Part shown: one piece after another, positions 11,400-61,726 of the stretch
Position numbering within the stretch: the stretch's first letter is position 1
Layout of the letters: each line of letters begins with the position of its first letter
Virus record (IMG/VR): IMGVR_UViG_3300029448_007456
Coordinates: 50,779-114,778 of that record
From: a virus
Length of the DNA: 64,000 nucleotides
Direction: 5' to 3' (one strand)
The notes under the pieces: model-generated
What the model saw: the letters and a program-made list of their open reading frames with translations, nothing else
Told to the model about the DNA's origin: nothing
The model's database searches: none
Made by a program: the position numbers and the translations under genes

Positions 11400-11671
11400 G
11401 TGGACCAATAGTAGAAGCAATCAATCAATATGGATTTCCAATCATTGCCGCAATGGGTCTTGGATACTTTGTGTTTTACATTTGGCAGTGGGTGACCACT
11501 GAGATAAAACCTGTGCTAGGTGCGGCCAACACCACATTAATTGCACTCATAGACAGAATTAGAATGTTGGACAATGATCTAATCAGACTCAACACCAAAC
11601 TTAAAATGATCGAAGAACTGCAAAACAAATCCAACAAAGAGATTGCTGACAAAGTAAAAAATAAAAAGTGA
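11396..11671 (+). CDS. Small membrane protein with coiled-coil tail, 91 aa
   Basis: Paralogue of 10791-11069: membrane helix 'YGFPIIAAMGLGYFVFYIWQW' and an amphipathic tail (LIALIDRIRMLDNDLIRLNTKLKMIEEL). Charged Lys-rich C terminus. Starts within the stop of the zinc-finger gene and ends overlapping the cyclase start. Possibly a regulatory or scaffolding partner of the cyclase, by context only. Confidence 0.7.
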   Translation: MSGPIVEAINQYGFPIIAAMGLGYFVFYIWQWVTTEIKPVLGAANTTLIALIDRIRMLDNDLIRLNTKLKMIEELQNKSNKEIADKVKNKK

Positions 11672-13756: not shown

Positions 13757-14074
13757 TTAAGCTACTGCTTGATTGATAATTGTTTTACCAGCAGATGCTA
13801 ATAATCCAATTGTTGCAGATCTTAATGACTTAGCACCTGCTAAATCACTCTTTGCTAATACTCTTACGTTGAAGTCATAACCTCTGTTAATGAGTTGTGT
13901 TGTAGGAGTTTTTCTTGTCATTGCAAGGTTCTTGTGTTTAATAACACCACCGTTGATGTTACCATTCTTGTCCATTGCAGTTTTAGCTTCGTCGATGAAA
14001 ACACCAACTTTTGAGTTTACGTTACCTTTTGTAAACTCTCTTGTGTATACCACGTATTGCTTAGTTCTTGCCAT
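13757..14074 (-). CDS. Hypothetical basic protein, 105 aa
   Basis: No family recognised. Basic N terminus (MARTKQYVVYTREFTKG), then a mixed region with many Lys and Asn and a C-terminal 'LRSATIGLLASAGKTIINQ' helix. It is a monocistronic unit: strong early-type promoter (14117-14145), AAAGG ribosome site and its own terminator. That suggests abundant expression, as for a DNA-binding or accessory head protein. Function unknown. Confidence 0.7.
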   Translation of the reverse strand: MARTKQYVVYTREFTKGNVNSKVGVFIDEAKTAMDKNGNINGGVIKHKNLAMTRKTPTTQLINRGYDFNVRVLAKSDLAGAKSLRSATIGLLASAGKTIINQAVA

Positions 14075-40711: not shown

Positions 40712-40754
40712 CAATATATTTATTGGCTTCAGGACACACGTCAGTATTACTTGT

Positions 40755-40809
40755 CAGTATGGCTTCAGTATGGCTTCAGTATGGCTTCAGTATGGCTTCA
40801 GTATGGCTT
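40755..40809 (+). repeat. Five tandem copies of an 11-bp repeat
   Basis: CAGTATGGCTT repeated five times without a mismatch, flanked on both sides by GGCTTCAGGACA. Lies upstream of the 112-aa basic gene in a gene-free stretch (40712-41021). Looks like replication-slippage expansion; may be polymorphic. Confidence 0.9.
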
Positions 40810-40906
40810 CAGGACATATGCCATACACTGATCACACACATGATTGATAGGGATATGAAAATTGCTATGGCCAGATAGAGGTCCCAATATATTTTCAAAT
40901 CTGGCA

Positions 40907-40947: not shown

Positions 40948-41021
40948 ATTTTTAGTCCTCCTGTCTATTGGCAAGGCGTGAGGTGCCCTGTGAATATGCT
41001 TCACATCGACCTCCATGGTAT

Positions 41022-42408: not shown

Positions 42409-42434
42409 AATATGTATAAACCAGGAGGTTGAAC

Positions 42435-43254: not shown

Positions 43255-43287
43255 AGTATTATCAAACAAAGACAAAGGAGGTCGTGT

Positions 43288-44471: not shown

Positions 44472-44499
44472 ATCCTTATGTGGTGGCTTGAAGCCATAG
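44368..44499 (+). CDS. Small basic early protein, 43 aa, in overlapping frame
   Basis: ATG preceded by AGGAG at 5-nt spacing. 'HNPEDDKKELKRLQMMIRLK' then 'TWFQTRWEEIKSLCGGLKP', an amphipathic helix. Overlaps the 75-aa gene by 104 nt and the 38-aa gene by 22 nt in different frames. Confidence 0.5.
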   Translation: MEVYHNPEDDKKELKRLQMMIRLKTWFQTRWEEIKSLCGGLKP

Positions 44500-44594
44500 G
44501 AGCCACACTACTCTTAGGAGCCATTATTGTATTAAACTGTTTGGTTTTATTCGATGATGGCAAACGCAATGGGTCGAAGTCCCGCAAGGACTAA
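44478..44594 (+). CDS. Small membrane protein, 38 aa
   Basis: 'MWWLEAIGATLLLGAIIVLN' then 'CLVLFDDGKRNGSKSRKD': one membrane helix and a basic tail. Last gene of the early block; 8 nt before the anti-Shine-Dalgarno hairpin. Confidence 0.55.
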   Translation: MWWLEAIGATLLLGAIIVLNCLVLFDDGKRNGSKSRKD

Positions 44595-44602
44595 GCAACA
44601 AA

Positions 44603-44628
44603 TTTCATTCGACCTCCAATCAATGAAA
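44603..44628 (+). ncRNA. Anti-Shine-Dalgarno hairpin, copy 1
   Basis: Perfect 7-bp stem TTTCATT/AATGAAA with 12-nt loop CGACCTCCAATC. The loop is the exact complement of GGAGGTCG, the extended ribosome site of many early genes here. Same 26 nt recur at 59758-59783, also just after the last stop of an early operon and just before a terminator. Likely a 3'-UTR element or the 5' part of a small RNA. Confidence 0.7.
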
Positions 44629-44630
44629 GC

Positions 44631-44660
44631 AAGGCTCGGAACTAATCTTCCGGGCCTTTG
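44631..44660 (+). terminator. Rho-independent terminator
   Basis: Stem AAGGCTCGG/CCGGGCCTT (one G-U pair), 10-nt loop, short T-rich tail; ends the early block 42.4-44.6 kb. Confidence 0.75.
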
Positions 44661-44665
44661 TCATC

Positions 44666-44673
44666 TATAAGTA
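44666..44673 (+). promoter_or_regulatory. Late-type promoter box
   Basis: TATAAGTA, 6 nt before the ATG at 44680. Confidence 0.5.
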
Positions 44674-44679
44674 TTTTTT

Positions 44680-45807
44680 ATGAACCTAGACAGCATAGAT
44701 CTTATCAAATTGACTGACGTGCAAAGACTTAAACTCAATTTAAGATTGCCAAAACCAGATCAAGAAATCATAGGCGATATGTCAGTTTTGCCTATGACCT
44801 TGCTAATGGGATGTCAAATAAAAATTTTGCCTGAAAATGATCTCAGGCAATGGTTGAAAAAAGAAAATTGTTTTTTATTGGATGGTAAAAAAATATCATA
44901 TCCTAGTTTTTCAAATGACGCCAGTGATGCCACACAAGATTTTATTGACATAGGTGGAGATCACTTTTGTATAGGTGACTCAAGTTTGGGTGGGAGATAT
45001 AAAAATCACGTTGACAGTTTTTATCCTTCAACATTTTTTGGATTTAGTGAAAAAAATTTATTAGATATACCAATTGAGCAAAGACAAGGCTGGTGTTGCA
45101 CGGTGTCAAAAAGACGTCCCACGAGAGATTGTATAATTGATATTATAAAATCCAAACATATGAACAAATTCCAAGGTAATGAATGGCTATGCTATGATGG
45201 TATCGATGAAAGTCAAAAAGAGATCATTGATTTGATGTTCAGAAGTCCTCAAGGAGGTAAAGCCGCTTTCATTGAATCTTGTGATGGTATAGATAACCAA
45301 CCATCAAGAAACTGGAGTGATCGCACGTTCACAGACACATTTGATAAGCACCAATCACACACAAATCAATTCCTAGGAGGCATCAAAAATTCCGCAGGTG
45401 GAGACCTAGGACATTTATTAGGTCCATGGCATAGGACAAGTTTGATTGAATTAGTATCAGAAGCAACAGTTGATTGGTTTGACCCATCTGAAAAAATGGC
45501 AAAACCTCTCAGAGCAGGTATGCCGTTTGTGGTGGTTGCCAGTCATAGATTTCTATACCGTCTGCGTAAAATGGGTTTGAAAACTTTCCATCCCTACATC
45601 AACGAATCATATGATACACAAGACAATTGGCGTAAACGCACAGAAATGGCAGTGGACGCCATGTTTGATTTTTCAAAATCTCCACAACAACTAGAACAGG
45701 TTGCAGAAATATGCAAACACAATCAAAACATCATGGTCAAGATTGGAAAACACAATAACCTTAAAAGAACTGCAAAAAAATTGAAAAGGCTCATAACTTT
45801 TTCTTGA
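44680..45807 (+). CDS. Glycosyltransferase-like protein, tandem copy 1 (375 aa)
   Basis: First of three adjacent paralogues. Shared blocks: N-terminal 'LPKP(D)Q.(I).GD......(T).(L)(M).GC.I', central 'RQGWCCTVSKR..RD.I...I..KH', then 'WFDPSEKMAKPLRAGMPFVV', 'FLYRLRKMGLKTFHPYINES', 'RTEMAVDAMFDF'. The 'S/T-E-K-x-x-K-P-x-x-A-G-x-P-F' and 'L-G-F-x-T-F' blocks resemble GT10-type and other GT-B transferases that use the E/K pair for donor binding. Specificity unknown. Stop overlaps copy 2 start (4 nt). Confidence 0.6.
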   Translation: MNLDSIDLIKLTDVQRLKLNLRLPKPDQEIIGDMSVLPMTLLMGCQIKILPENDLRQWLKKENCFLLDGKKISYPSFSNDASDATQDFIDIGGDHFCIGDSSLGGRYKNHVDSFYPSTFFGFSEKNLLDIPIEQRQGWCCTVSKRRPTRDCIIDIIKSKHMNKFQGNEWLCYDGIDESQKEIIDLMFRSPQGGKAAFIESCDGIDNQPSRNWSDRTFTDTFDKHQSHTNQFLGGIKNSAGGDLGHLLGPWHRTSLIELVSEATVDWFDPSEKMAKPLRAGMPFVVVASHRFLYRLRKMGLKTFHPYINESYDTQDNWRKRTEMAVDAMFDFSKSPQQLEQVAEICKHNQNIMVKIGKHNNLKRTAKKLKRLITFS

Positions 45808-46832
45808 TGGATATCAATAAGATAGATACAACTAATTTGTCTCTTAGAGAGCAAATCCTTATCAATCAAAAACTACCACGGCCTAAACAAAATGTATTTG
45901 GTGATATCCAAGCATTTCCTGTCACATTCAGATTGGGTTGTAGAATAGAACTGTCTGACAAACCACAATGGCACGATGGCAACGCTCCTGCCATACTAAT
46001 TGATGGCAAAAAAGTAAATTGGGGGCCCGATTCAACCTTAGATTTTGAAAAAAATCCAAATGAATATCTACTGTGTATTGGAGAATCTTCACTTCACGCC
46101 AAATACTCCAATCATATTGATCATCTTTATTCGCCTTATCTTTGGAAGACTGGAGTGATGCAGGAACAGATATCACTGGCTCAAAGGCAAGGGTGGTGTT
46201 GCACCATGTTCCGTAAAGATCAACACAGAGATTATATCAGTGAACTGTTGATAACCAAGTACCAAAATCAATTCACAGGCTCGGAATGGTTTTGTTATGA
46301 TCAAGGCCACAACTTCAAAGATCTATTCAAACATATGTTTCGCAAACCTCATCGCAAAAGTCTACAAAATCTGCTTGGCTCGGGCAATATGGAATTATTG
46401 AAAACATTTCCAGTGATATCTGGCGATGCAGATCACAAATCATTAGGACCATGGCACGCACAGACTCTGGTTGAGTTGGTGCCCGAAACGACCACAAGAT
46501 ATTTTGACCCCACTGAAAAAATCTACAAACCAATATCAGCAGGTATGCCGTTTGTGATGGTTGCTAGTCAAGGATTTTTATATCGTCTGCGTAAAATGGG
46601 ATTCTGCACGTTCCATCCGTGGATAGATGAATCCTATGATCAAGAACCTAATTGGAAGATCAGAACAGAAATGGCTGTGGCGGCTATGTTTGAATTTGTT
46701 CAATCTCCAAACAATCTTGAACATATTCAATCTGTGTGTGATCACAATCAACAGACTTTCCGTCGCATCAGACGGCATGATTACTTGTCAAGGATTGCCA
46801 AAAAACTTCGGCCACTAATTACTATTGAATGA
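45804..46832 (+). CDS. Glycosyltransferase-like protein, tandem copy 2 (342 aa)
   Basis: Paralogue of the flanking copies. 'RQGWCCTMFRKDQHRDYISE', 'GSEWFCYDQ', 'YFDPTEKIYKPISAGMPFVM', 'FLYRLRKMGFCTFHPWIDES'. It is shorter by a central insertion found in copy 1. Coupled to both neighbours by 4-nt overlaps, so the three are probably one expression unit. Confidence 0.6.
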   Translation: MMDINKIDTTNLSLREQILINQKLPRPKQNVFGDIQAFPVTFRLGCRIELSDKPQWHDGNAPAILIDGKKVNWGPDSTLDFEKNPNEYLLCIGESSLHAKYSNHIDHLYSPYLWKTGVMQEQISLAQRQGWCCTMFRKDQHRDYISELLITKYQNQFTGSEWFCYDQGHNFKDLFKHMFRKPHRKSLQNLLGSGNMELLKTFPVISGDADHKSLGPWHAQTLVELVPETTTRYFDPTEKIYKPISAGMPFVMVASQGFLYRLRKMGFCTFHPWIDESYDQEPNWKIRTEMAVAAMFEFVQSPNNLEHIQSVCDHNQQTFRRIRRHDYLSRIAKKLRPLITIE

Positions 46833-47893
46833 AAACACTCACAGGCATTGACATAGACTCGTTGGATGAACGACAACTCATTCTGATCAACCAAAGGCTG
46901 CCAAAGCCTTGTGAACACATTATAGGTGATGTCAAATGCCTACCTGTCACACTAAGATTAGGATGTAGAATCGAAGTGAGCAATCATCAGGACCTTCATG
47001 GAGGCAGATGCAGAGTTCTTTACATCGAGAACAAAAAAATAGGTTTTGGATTTGATGCCACTAGAGATTTTCTATATGCAGACTATCACAAAGACTTTGA
47101 AATAGTGTATGGTGACGCTTGGTTGACTCCTCCACAATCTGGCCACGTCAATACTCTGTTGACTTGGTCGTTCTATCACACACAATGGTTGGATTCTGTG
47201 CCTTCTATTGCAGAACGCAGGGGTTGGTGTTGCACCATGACACGAGCAGATCGCCACAGGCACAAGATATTGGATGTCATAGCAGACAAACACATGACAG
47301 GATTCACAGGCTCAGAATGGTTTTGTTATGATGAGGCCACTCATCAAGGCCATCACAGACCTGAACTGTATCCTTTTATGTTCAGACAGCCTGCAGGCAT
47401 TGATCACACAAGTCTGACCAGAGATGAAAGGCAGAGATTTAGACACTACAAAAGGTTGTCAAACTATAATCCACACCCTTTTCACAATCATGGCCATAGT
47501 TTGGCTGAATGGCATCTGACCAATCTGGTTGAACTGTGCCCCACCGCCAACTTGGAATATTTTGAATTTGACGAAAAGATTGCCAAACCAATCGCCGCAG
47601 GTATGGCCTTTGTGGTGGTGGCCGCACAGAACACTCTGGCAAGACTTAGAAGGATTGGTTTTAGAACCTTTAATCCTTTGATTGATGAATCATATGATCA
47701 AGAACCTGATTGGCAAAGCCGCACAGAGAAGGCAGTGGATGCGATGTTTGAATTTGTCAGCGGAGCACACGATCATCAACAATTACAAGAAATCTGTGAT
47801 CACAACAGATCAGTGATGGCTAGACTGCAACGATACACCTATGAAGACCGAGTGGCCAAAAGACTTAGACCACTTATATCTTGGCCTTCATAG
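46829..47893 (+). CDS. Glycosyltransferase-like protein, tandem copy 3 (354 aa)
   Basis: 'RRGWCCTMTRADRHRHKILD', 'GSEWFCYDEATHQGHH', 'EFDEKIAKPIAAGMAFVVVA', 'ARLRRIGFRTFNPLIDES'. Keeps the E-K...K-P...A-G block. Divergence among copies (clear by eye at most positions outside motifs) indicates old duplication, perhaps for different acceptor sugars. Confidence 0.6.
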   Translation: MKTLTGIDIDSLDERQLILINQRLPKPCEHIIGDVKCLPVTLRLGCRIEVSNHQDLHGGRCRVLYIENKKIGFGFDATRDFLYADYHKDFEIVYGDAWLTPPQSGHVNTLLTWSFYHTQWLDSVPSIAERRGWCCTMTRADRHRHKILDVIADKHMTGFTGSEWFCYDEATHQGHHRPELYPFMFRQPAGIDHTSLTRDERQRFRHYKRLSNYNPHPFHNHGHSLAEWHLTNLVELCPTANLEYFEFDEKIAKPIAAGMAFVVVAAQNTLARLRRIGFRTFNPLIDESYDQEPDWQSRTEKAVDAMFEFVSGAHDHQQLQEICDHNRSVMARLQRYTYEDRVAKRLRPLISWPS

Positions 47894-50083: not shown

Positions 50084-50111
50084 TATTAATTAATCGACAA
50101 GGAGGTCGCAA

Positions 50112-51562: not shown

Positions 51563-51590
51563 TTGACAGATTACCATATGGTAATACTAT
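51563..51590 (+). promoter_or_regulatory. Early promoter with palindromic spacer
   Basis: TTGACA (51563-51568), 16 nt, TACTAT (51585-51590), 6 nt, ATG 51597. The 16-bp perfect palindrome ATTACCATATGGTAAT (51570-51585) fills the spacer and recurs at 59875-59890: a candidate operator. Confidence 0.75.
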
Positions 51591-51596
51591 AATAGT

Positions 51597-51983
51597 ATGA
51601 CAACAACAAACACATTCATCAAAGAGAACTTTTCTTACTCAGGTGGATATTTGACATATGATGATGGAGTTGATAGACATTTTATCGCTCGTTTCAAGTA
51701 TGTTCCTAAATCATCTGCCACAAAGTTTATGAACTTTTTGATCAAAAACTTCACTTGTGAAGAATACTTGGAGAGAGCCAATCAAGAGGCTCCGCTCACA
51801 ATATTGGAGAGCAAAGGTTATTGCTCTCCTGAAATGGCCAGATTGGCTCGTAGATGGGGATATGCTCCTACTCTTGCAAATGCTCATCAGGCTCTGATTG
51901 ATCAAACCAATCAGGATTTGGTTGGAATGGGTAAAGATCCAATAACACCACAGCAGGCGGAGGAATTTTTACAGTCTGCCTAG
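51597..51983 (+). CDS. Hypothetical early protein, 128 aa (leaderless)
   Basis: Starts 6 nt after the -10 box without any Shine-Dalgarno. 'FSYSGGYLTYDDGVDRHFIA', 'TKFMNFLIKNFTCEEYLERA', 'ITPQQAEEFLQSA'. Mixed alpha/beta; no family. Confidence 0.65.
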   Translation: MTTTNTFIKENFSYSGGYLTYDDGVDRHFIARFKYVPKSSATKFMNFLIKNFTCEEYLERANQEAPLTILESKGYCSPEMARLARRWGYAPTLANAHQALIDQTNQDLVGMGKDPITPQQAEEFLQSA

Positions 51984-52011: not shown

Positions 52012-52043
52012 AATAATAAGACAACAACAAGGAGGTCGTTGAT

Positions 52044-52519: not shown

Positions 52520-52877
52520 ATGGGACAACAGAGAGCGTCAATACCATGCACCCTTTGACATCATCATTCAAACAATACCAGAGGAAGTCCGCATCAGAGA
52601 CATGTTTGATGATTCCATCAATCCAGACACAGGCAAATCATACTATGATGTTGACTACATGGAACAACAGGTTGAGAATGGTTCAGCAGAATGGTCAGTG
52701 GTTAATGTTCAGTGTATGCTGAATGGCGTTGAATTAGGGTCATTTGCCATAGGGGGTGCTTATCTGGATGAACACTATGATTTGATGTCATTTGTTTACG
52801 ACAATGGCATGATTGACGAAGCGAAGAATGATGCTAAAATATGGTTAGACAACACAAAGGAGGTCGTGTATGCTTAA
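52512..52877 (+). CDS. Hypothetical early protein, 121 aa
   Basis: Start at 52512, 9 nt after GAGGAGG. 'YHAPFDIIIQTIPEEVRIRD', 'WSVVNVQCMLNGVELGSFAI', 'DEAKNDAKIWLDNTKEVVYA'. No family; its end contains the AAAGGAGGTCG site of the next gene. Confidence 0.65.
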   Translation: MLRWDNRERQYHAPFDIIIQTIPEEVRIRDMFDDSINPDTGKSYYDVDYMEQQVENGSAEWSVVNVQCMLNGVELGSFAIGGAYLDEHYDLMSFVYDNGMIDEAKNDAKIWLDNTKEVVYA

Positions 52878-55500: not shown

Positions 55501-55534
55501 AATATTAACAACAAAAACAACAAGGAGGTCGTTT

Positions 55535-55949: not shown

Positions 55950-55985
55950 AGTATTAAGAAAACATTTTACACAAGGAGGTCGTAA

Positions 55986-59438: not shown

Positions 59439-59572
59439 TGAAATTGATCATTGGTTTTGCCATAGGTTATTTTGTGGCCACCACACCCATTGGACAGGAG
59501 ATGCTTCCCACCGTGCAGGCATATTCTGTGCAACTGTTAGAATGGATTACCAACACAGTAAGGAGTATATGA
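59438..59572 (+). CDS. Small membrane protein, 44 aa
   Basis: TAATG coupling. 'MKLIIGFAIGYFVATTPIGQ', 'VQAYSVQLLEWITNTVRSI': N-terminal membrane helix and amphipathic helix. GGCAGG upstream. Confidence 0.55.
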   Translation: MKLIIGFAIGYFVATTPIGQEMLPTVQAYSVQLLEWITNTVRSI

Positions 59573-59754
59573 TGGCAGATGTAAAAATTAAAATGAGTGC
59601 CGACGATCTTTCGCAGGCCATAGGAGAATATCTCTACAACAGGAAGAAACTGCCTGTGGGCATGGAAGAAGCATCAGTTGGTTTCAAAGTGGAGGACGGA
59701 GAGTTCGTAATCACAGTATCAACAGATCAGATACCGTCGATGACTCTAAATTAA
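59572..59754 (+). CDS. Hypothetical early protein, 60 aa
   Basis: AAGGAG 6 nt before ATG 59572 (another ATG at 59569). 'KIKMSADDLSQAIGEYLYNR', 'VEDGEFVITVSTDQIPSMTL'. Helix plus beta hairpin. Followed by the second anti-Shine-Dalgarno hairpin. Confidence 0.6.
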   Translation: MADVKIKMSADDLSQAIGEYLYNRKKLPVGMEEASVGFKVEDGEFVITVSTDQIPSMTLN

Positions 59755-59757
59755 CAG

Positions 59758-59783
59758 TTTCATTCGACCTCCAATCAATGAAA
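59758..59783 (+). ncRNA. Anti-Shine-Dalgarno hairpin, copy 2
   Basis: Identical in all 26 nt to 44603-44628 (stem TTTCATT/AATGAAA, loop CGACCTCCAATC), 3 nt after the stop of the last gene of the operon and 5 nt before a terminator stem. Flanks differ from copy 1, so the identity is not a recent large duplication. Confidence 0.7.
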
Positions 59784-59788
59784 CTCGT

Positions 59789-59832
59789 GGGCGGACTTTC
59801 GTCATGAATGCTAGTTCGCCTGCGTTTTATTT
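59789..59832 (+). terminator. Rho-independent terminator
   Basis: Stem GGCGGACT/AGTTCGCC (one G-U) with a 15-nt loop and TTTTATTT tail. Confidence 0.65.
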
Positions 59833-61667: not shown

Positions 61668-61726
61668 GACTCCTAGATGATAGGAGTGTTTGTTGTGTGA
61701 GGGGGCAGGCAACTGTCCCCTTTTTT
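61668..61726 (+). terminator. Double-hairpin terminator of the last early operon
   Basis: First stem ACTCCT/AGGAGT, second GGGGCAG/CTGTCCCC followed by TTTTTT. Confidence 0.85.

Follow-up and report, generated by a model that had tools for sequence, protein, structure and literature searches.

Small RNAs of the RsaE type and LhrC carry anti-Shine-Dalgarno (anti-SD) motifs in loops, with several motifs per RNA, and act on many targets. These RNAs with C-rich or UCCC loops belong to staphylococci and Listeria (PMC4132741, PMC3861533). A motif of this kind was also described in the 3'UTR of the icaR mRNA of Staphylococcus aureus, where the sequence UCCCCUG pairs with the SD and blocks binding of the 30S subunit; RNase III is involved, and the authors left open whether the pairing takes place in cis or in trans (PMC3868564). 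In phages P1 and P7, the loops of the c4 antisense RNA are complementary to a ribosome-binding region, and the RNA blocks translation (PMC12197685). In T4, early mRNAs are shut off by RegB and RegA; according to a review of 2010, no small trans-acting RNA from this phage had been functionally characterised (PMC3014915). A limited literature search disclosed no published case of a phage RNA matched to a private early SD.

The stretch of DNA analysed here (the window, 64 kb) is the last part of a 114.8-kb phage contig. Its gene set is of the T4 type and marine in character, and the adenylate cyclase at 11668, which is adjoined by curli-type genes, shares 62% identity with its counterpart in Methylophilales phage Melnitz and 46% with that in Pelagibacter phage HTVC008M. 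Tandem repeats aside, the longest exact dispersed repeats of the contig include an early promoter (27 nt), an anti-SD hairpin (26 nt) and an early leader (18–19 nt), all of which look like control elements. One early promoter, at 51563–51597 (TTGACAGATTACCATATGGTAATACTATAATAGTATG), has the first ATG at or near the expected transcription start, and the gene following it is probably a leaderless early gene; the spacer of this promoter, ATTACCATATGGTAAT, is palindromic and may serve as an operator. Three tandem paralogous genes of unknown family occupy 44680–47893, with a fragment of one of them at the end of the relative G001, and at 40754–40812 TCAGTATGGCT (11 bp) is repeated in tandem in a stretch that looks intergenic.

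The hairpin reported in the initial annotation was confirmed, as the 26-mer TTTCATTCGACCTCCAATCAATGAAA occurs exactly twice in the 114.8-kb contig, at 44603–44628 and 59758–59783, with no third copy at up to three mismatches and an expectation of 0 from shuffled sequences. Copy 1 (44603–44628, plus strand), defined by the exact repeat and by folding, has a 7-bp stem (TTTCATT/AATGAAA) and the loop CGACCTCCAATC, within which CGACCTCC, the complement of the early SD GGAGGTCG, lies at 44610–44617 (plus strand). The last open reading frame of early unit 1 (44478–44594, plus strand), predicted to encode a hydrophobic protein of 38 aa, has its stop 8 nt 5' of copy 1, and a terminator-like hairpin with a weak U tail follows directly 3' of it (44629–44662, plus strand; fold of 44594–44668). 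Ahead of the next gene (44680) there is a box, TATAAGTA (44666–44673, plus strand), which by resemblance only is of the T4 late-promoter type; its location after the first terminator is consistent with early unit 1 ending there. Copy 2 (59756–59785, plus strand; identical 26-mer at 59758–59783) displays the same loop on a 9-bp stem (AGTTTCATT/AATGAAACT). It lies 3 nt past the stop (59752–59754) of the last reading frame of early unit 2 (59542–59754, plus strand, up to 70 aa), and is followed by a terminator hairpin (59786–59824, plus strand; fold of 59750–59832) and a U-rich tail; an early promoter is located after this second terminator. The annotated placement between the last stop and a terminator in two operons was therefore correct, both copies lying 3–8 nt past the stop. 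Each hairpin folds jointly with the adjoining terminator hairpin, with −21.5 kcal/mol for copy 1 (z −4.3 against shuffles) and −27.3 kcal/mol for copy 2 (z −4.6). On sequence and folding, this location at the mRNA 3' end with a shared terminator is that of a type II 3'UTR-derived sRNA. A third CGACCTCC on the plus strand, at 41007, is outside any such hairpin, and a third early unit, ending near 61722 with another hairpin pair, has neither the anti-SD loop nor any GGAGGTCG start.

The loop had been noted as a perfect 8-nt complement of an SD shared by at least six early genes, and this match of CGACCTCC with GGAGGTCG was found at all six named ATGs. The SDs lie on the plus strand at 43277–43284 (gene 43288), 50101–50108 (gene 50112), 52031–52038 (gene 52044), 52859–52866 (gene 52870), 55524–55531 (gene 55535) and 55975–55982 (gene 55986, the orthologues of which led to the relatives described below), each 11–13 nt 5' of its ATG. 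Counting both strands, GGAGGTCG has 9 sites against 0.2 expected. A seventh early start, 42435, with GGAGGTTGAA, gives equally good loop pairing: its SD, GGAGGTTG(AA) (42424–42431, plus strand), pairs with the loop via a G-U pair, and the duplex is worth −16.1 kcal/mol. All seven matching starts fall within the two early regions closed by the hairpin, upstream of one of its copies, and the loop-pairing starts are the top of 3863 candidate starts. The duplex of loop and leader amounts to about −16 kcal/mol, as compared to −12.4 to −13.3 kcal/mol for the 16S anti-SD with the six GGAGGTCG leaders. The CG of the extended SD is not complementary to the usual 16S rRNA 3' end, as had been annotated.

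The leaders in the window also form a weak hairpin of their own that involves the TCG extension, with GGAG in the small loop and with differing stems, which is another possible reason for the conservation of this extension. The probability of GGAG being in the loop is 0.49–0.99, against about 0.4 in shuffles, and covariation of the leader stem in the window (12 of 720 permutations) is suggestive only. With GGAG so placed, the early leaders between 43277 and 55982 are possible sites for a RegB-like nuclease.

The 26-mer had no relative in IMG/VR, and exact scans found no close relative of this early region there. Exact hairpin matches, one in IMG/VR and three in GTDB genomes, were at about chance level, and the single IMG/VR match turned out to be an SD plus start on the opposite strand. 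Reading the 26-mer itself as a minus-strand start (GGAGGTCG A ATG AAA) was rejected, only 5-codon frames following it and minus-strand starts being inconsistent in the relatives. The early promoter pattern matched only coding-like sequence in IMG/VR, and the leader pattern ACAAGGAGGTCGNNNATG picked up unrelated phages with self-complementary leaders, for example GCGAC[AAGGAG]GTCGC, so that GGAGGTCG alone can also come from a leader hairpin. In the unrelated phages L279, L266 and L233 the latter leader hairpin, with the SD in its loop, is sometimes present several times per contig. Contigs of relatives found through the cyclase or NrdA stop before the early region or have no such hairpin. The search of INPHARED with the early genes gave no close cultured relative; no hairpin matching a private shared early SD was identified in Melnitz and HTVC008M, and PA5oct has no such element 3' of the orthologous gene. 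The protein of gene 55986, on the other hand, was found in IMG/VR at 58 loci of uncultured phages, about thirty of them at 50–74% identity. None of the relatives found has the SD family of the window, and the 26-mer is not conserved as sequence. The conserved feature is the match of loop and SD, and conservation of the element in the window would be that of functional counterparts in related phages.

Analysis of the leaders of the gene 55986 orthologues revealed that the early SDs differ between phages, the other shared SDs being GGAGCGA (8–12 starts), AGAGAGGT (14–15 starts) and GAGGGCA (10 starts). The hairpins of the relatives were first seen in a scan for CTCC-containing loops; the count is fairer when the shared SD is read from the gene starts first and its complement is then sought along the entire coding strand of the record. 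In each relative the complement of its own SD is scarce, with 1–3 coding-strand occurrences per record, and lies in a hairpin loop of an early-gene 3'UTR, beside or inside the terminator. GGAGCGA precedes 12 starts in G137 (116 kb), 11 in G110 and 8 in G119; TCGCTCC occurs twice in G137, once in the loop of a 14-bp hairpin, and a single time in G110 and G119, in the loops of a 14-bp and a 13-bp hairpin, respectively. GAGAGGT is shared by 14–15 starts in G114 and G138 (124 kb), and ACCTCTC, with two and three occurrences, is found twice in tandem 9-bp hairpin loops after the same gene, the third occurrence in G138 being in another 3'UTR hairpin. In G127 (81 kb), GAGGGCA is at 10 starts, and the only TGCCCTC is in the loop of a 15-bp terminator hairpin, the loop proper being 6 nt plus the closing pair; UAGCCCUC also occurs there at the stop codon. 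The gene carrying the 3'UTR in these relatives is the orthologue of window gene 60020.

Loop and SD have thus changed together over four SD types, and the stems differ yet still pair. The three GGAGCGA-type hairpins retain 13 of 13 stem pairs although both partners differ at nearly all of them, and no run of columns other than TCGCTCC is invariant. Each matched 3'UTR complements all leaders of its own phage by at least 7 nt, whereas for leaders with another SD type the average is mostly 4–6 nt, the exception being the L354 3'UTR against the G127 leaders, with an average of 7 nt. Per 2000 trials, between 0 and 22 shuffled 3'UTRs equalled the observed leader match, and in 6 of 6 records the pairing of loop and leader is stronger than that of the 16S anti-SD by 2 to 5 kcal/mol. 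A loop seed complementary to initiation regions, also in separate units, is kept through covariation, as in a type II sRNA. The phage-specific pairing of the loop with the phage's own SD, as originally annotated, thereby gains independent support from relatives whose loops are altered to match other early SDs.

For the GGAGTTG group (shared SD at 3–7 starts) no matching loop was found, nor was a matching hairpin found in the AGAGAGGC-type contigs, which are fragments without that region; the model would predict for the latter phages a 3'UTR hairpin with GCCTCTCT in its loop. In relatives without a single dominant early SD, including some of the GGAGTTG group, a generic hairpin loop, ACCTCCCT (or CCTCCC), is present on unlike stems directly before terminators (G117 minus strand 82758; L353 19276; L372 19173; L368 18668), which may be a less specific, generic anti-SD form of the same element. 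A long conserved loop, CCTCTCTCTGCTCTT, is shared by two 3'UTR hairpins, one in G138 (minus strand 67097) and one in G121 (plus strand 3930); their stems are unrelated, and both come after genes that look orthologous. The G138 copy also includes ACCTCTCT, the complement of the SD of this phage. The early region of L351 contains a glutamine riboswitch (Rfam RF01739) at 13818–13865.

A 3'UTR that merely folds back onto the SDs of its own mRNA, as in icaR, would make the finished transcript silence itself with no free RNA, and it has a proven precedent (PMC3868564). It would agree with the position of all seven matching starts of the window upstream of the hairpin, apparently in the same two units, the borders of which are putative, and with L349, L351 and L360, where the gene carrying the 3'UTR has the SD itself. 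In L354, however, the carrier gene is not among the starts listed with the SD, and genes that have the same SD and their own promoters are located past the terminator in L349 (10988, 11355), L351 (10516, 11204), L354 (12371, 12907, 17130) and L360 (16215). Because these genes appear to be in separate downstream units, pairing in cis is probably not the whole story, and as a complete explanation it is unlikely. Action in trans, annotated at first from the window, is favoured by these genes of the relatives. The other earlier suggestion, a decoy that mimics the ribosome, has less in its favour, because the loops of all these phages pair with bases outside the core that is complementary to 16S rRNA.

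Recognition of both the leader SD hairpin and the 3' hairpin by a phage translational repressor or nuclease, with incidental complementarity, would account for the placing of GGAG in the leader loops of the window, and T4 RegB alone can cut GGAG with GGA unpaired (PMC3014915). Such a protein-binding element is improbable, however, as leader and 3' loop are complements and not copies in four SD types; besides, RegB and RegA (PF10715, PF01818) had no match in G000 or six relatives, the contigs of which are likely incomplete. Still less probable, and about equally so, are two further explanations. The 3' hairpin, which always adjoins or forms part of the terminator, might chiefly stabilise the mRNA end or aid termination, the anti-SD loop being a by-product, but no particular loop would then be needed, and only the loop of the hairpin is conserved among the GGAGCGA phages. 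Alternatively, a terminator-linked hairpin duplicated in the genome might happen to hold an anti-SD-like stretch, in keeping with the lack of a homologue of the 26-mer. Loop complementarity spans no more than 7–9 nt, and among permuted 7-mers about 4–9% (9 of 104 at most in a record) also end up in a hairpin loop by chance, so that the weight is carried by position and recurrence; coincidence is opposed by the return of the arrangement for four different SDs, with a strong 3'UTR hairpin holding the matching complement in each case, and by the covariation of the stems.

The best explanation, to which we assign a probability of about two in three, is that the 3'UTRs encode an anti-SD antisense RNA by which the phage represses early genes of its own. 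The early units would end in a short stable RNA end made of the anti-SD loop and the terminator, so that the loop is displayed beside the terminator on a presumably abundant RNA. Pairing over 7–9 nt with the SD common to the early genes would block ribosome binding, probably also in trans, and early translation would fall once enough early RNA ends have accumulated. The SD would have two parts, a core read by 16S rRNA and a phage-specific extension (TCG in the window; CGA, AGA or GCA in relatives) read only by the phage RNA, by virtue of which the RNA would prefer phage early mRNAs over those of the host. It is also conceivable, though with somewhat less than even odds, that these T4-type marine phages form a clade in which the early genes carry a private and rapidly changing SD extension as a mark, read by the loop of a trans-acting RNA. 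In that case a phage would switch off its own early regulon with host translation untouched, and through the co-evolution of SD and loop the regulons of co-infecting phages would be orthogonal to one another. The antisense model would also explain why bases of the early SD are kept though 16S rRNA does not read them, and it yields sharp, testable target predictions.

Among the known systems, icaR is the nearest worked case, likewise with a 3'UTR motif complementary to an SD and pairing over 7 nt. In icaR, however, a single mRNA has a single target, the 3'UTR is long and bacterial, and RNase III takes part, while the phage element has many early genes as predicted targets, holds its motif in a hairpin loop beside the terminator, and changes loop and SD together. 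The nearest phage case is the c4 RNA of P1 and P7, the loops of which match the ribosome-binding region of a phage gene; these phages are temperate, however, the RNA has one target (ant mRNA) and a role in immunity, and there is no SD barcode across many genes. At the Rfam gathering score, neither the window nor the 3'UTRs of four relatives gave any hit, C4 antisense RNA included. RNAs of the RsaE type and LhrC share anti-SD motifs in loops and many targets with the phage element, but these regulators belong to the host, and their anti-SD motif is generic and is not known to be adapted to a private SD. The shut-off by RegB and RegA in T4 likely serves the same purpose, early mRNAs losing translation through their initiation regions, but is done by proteins and not by RNA. 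Anti-SD pairing by bacterial RNAs is thus already known, but it is usually generic or confined to a single gene; in these phages one private SD is common to a whole early regulon, and its complement is encoded by the phage itself, in at least four versions in which loop and SD have changed together, and this would constitute an RNA route to early-gene shut-off and a natural orthogonal SD/anti-SD pair.
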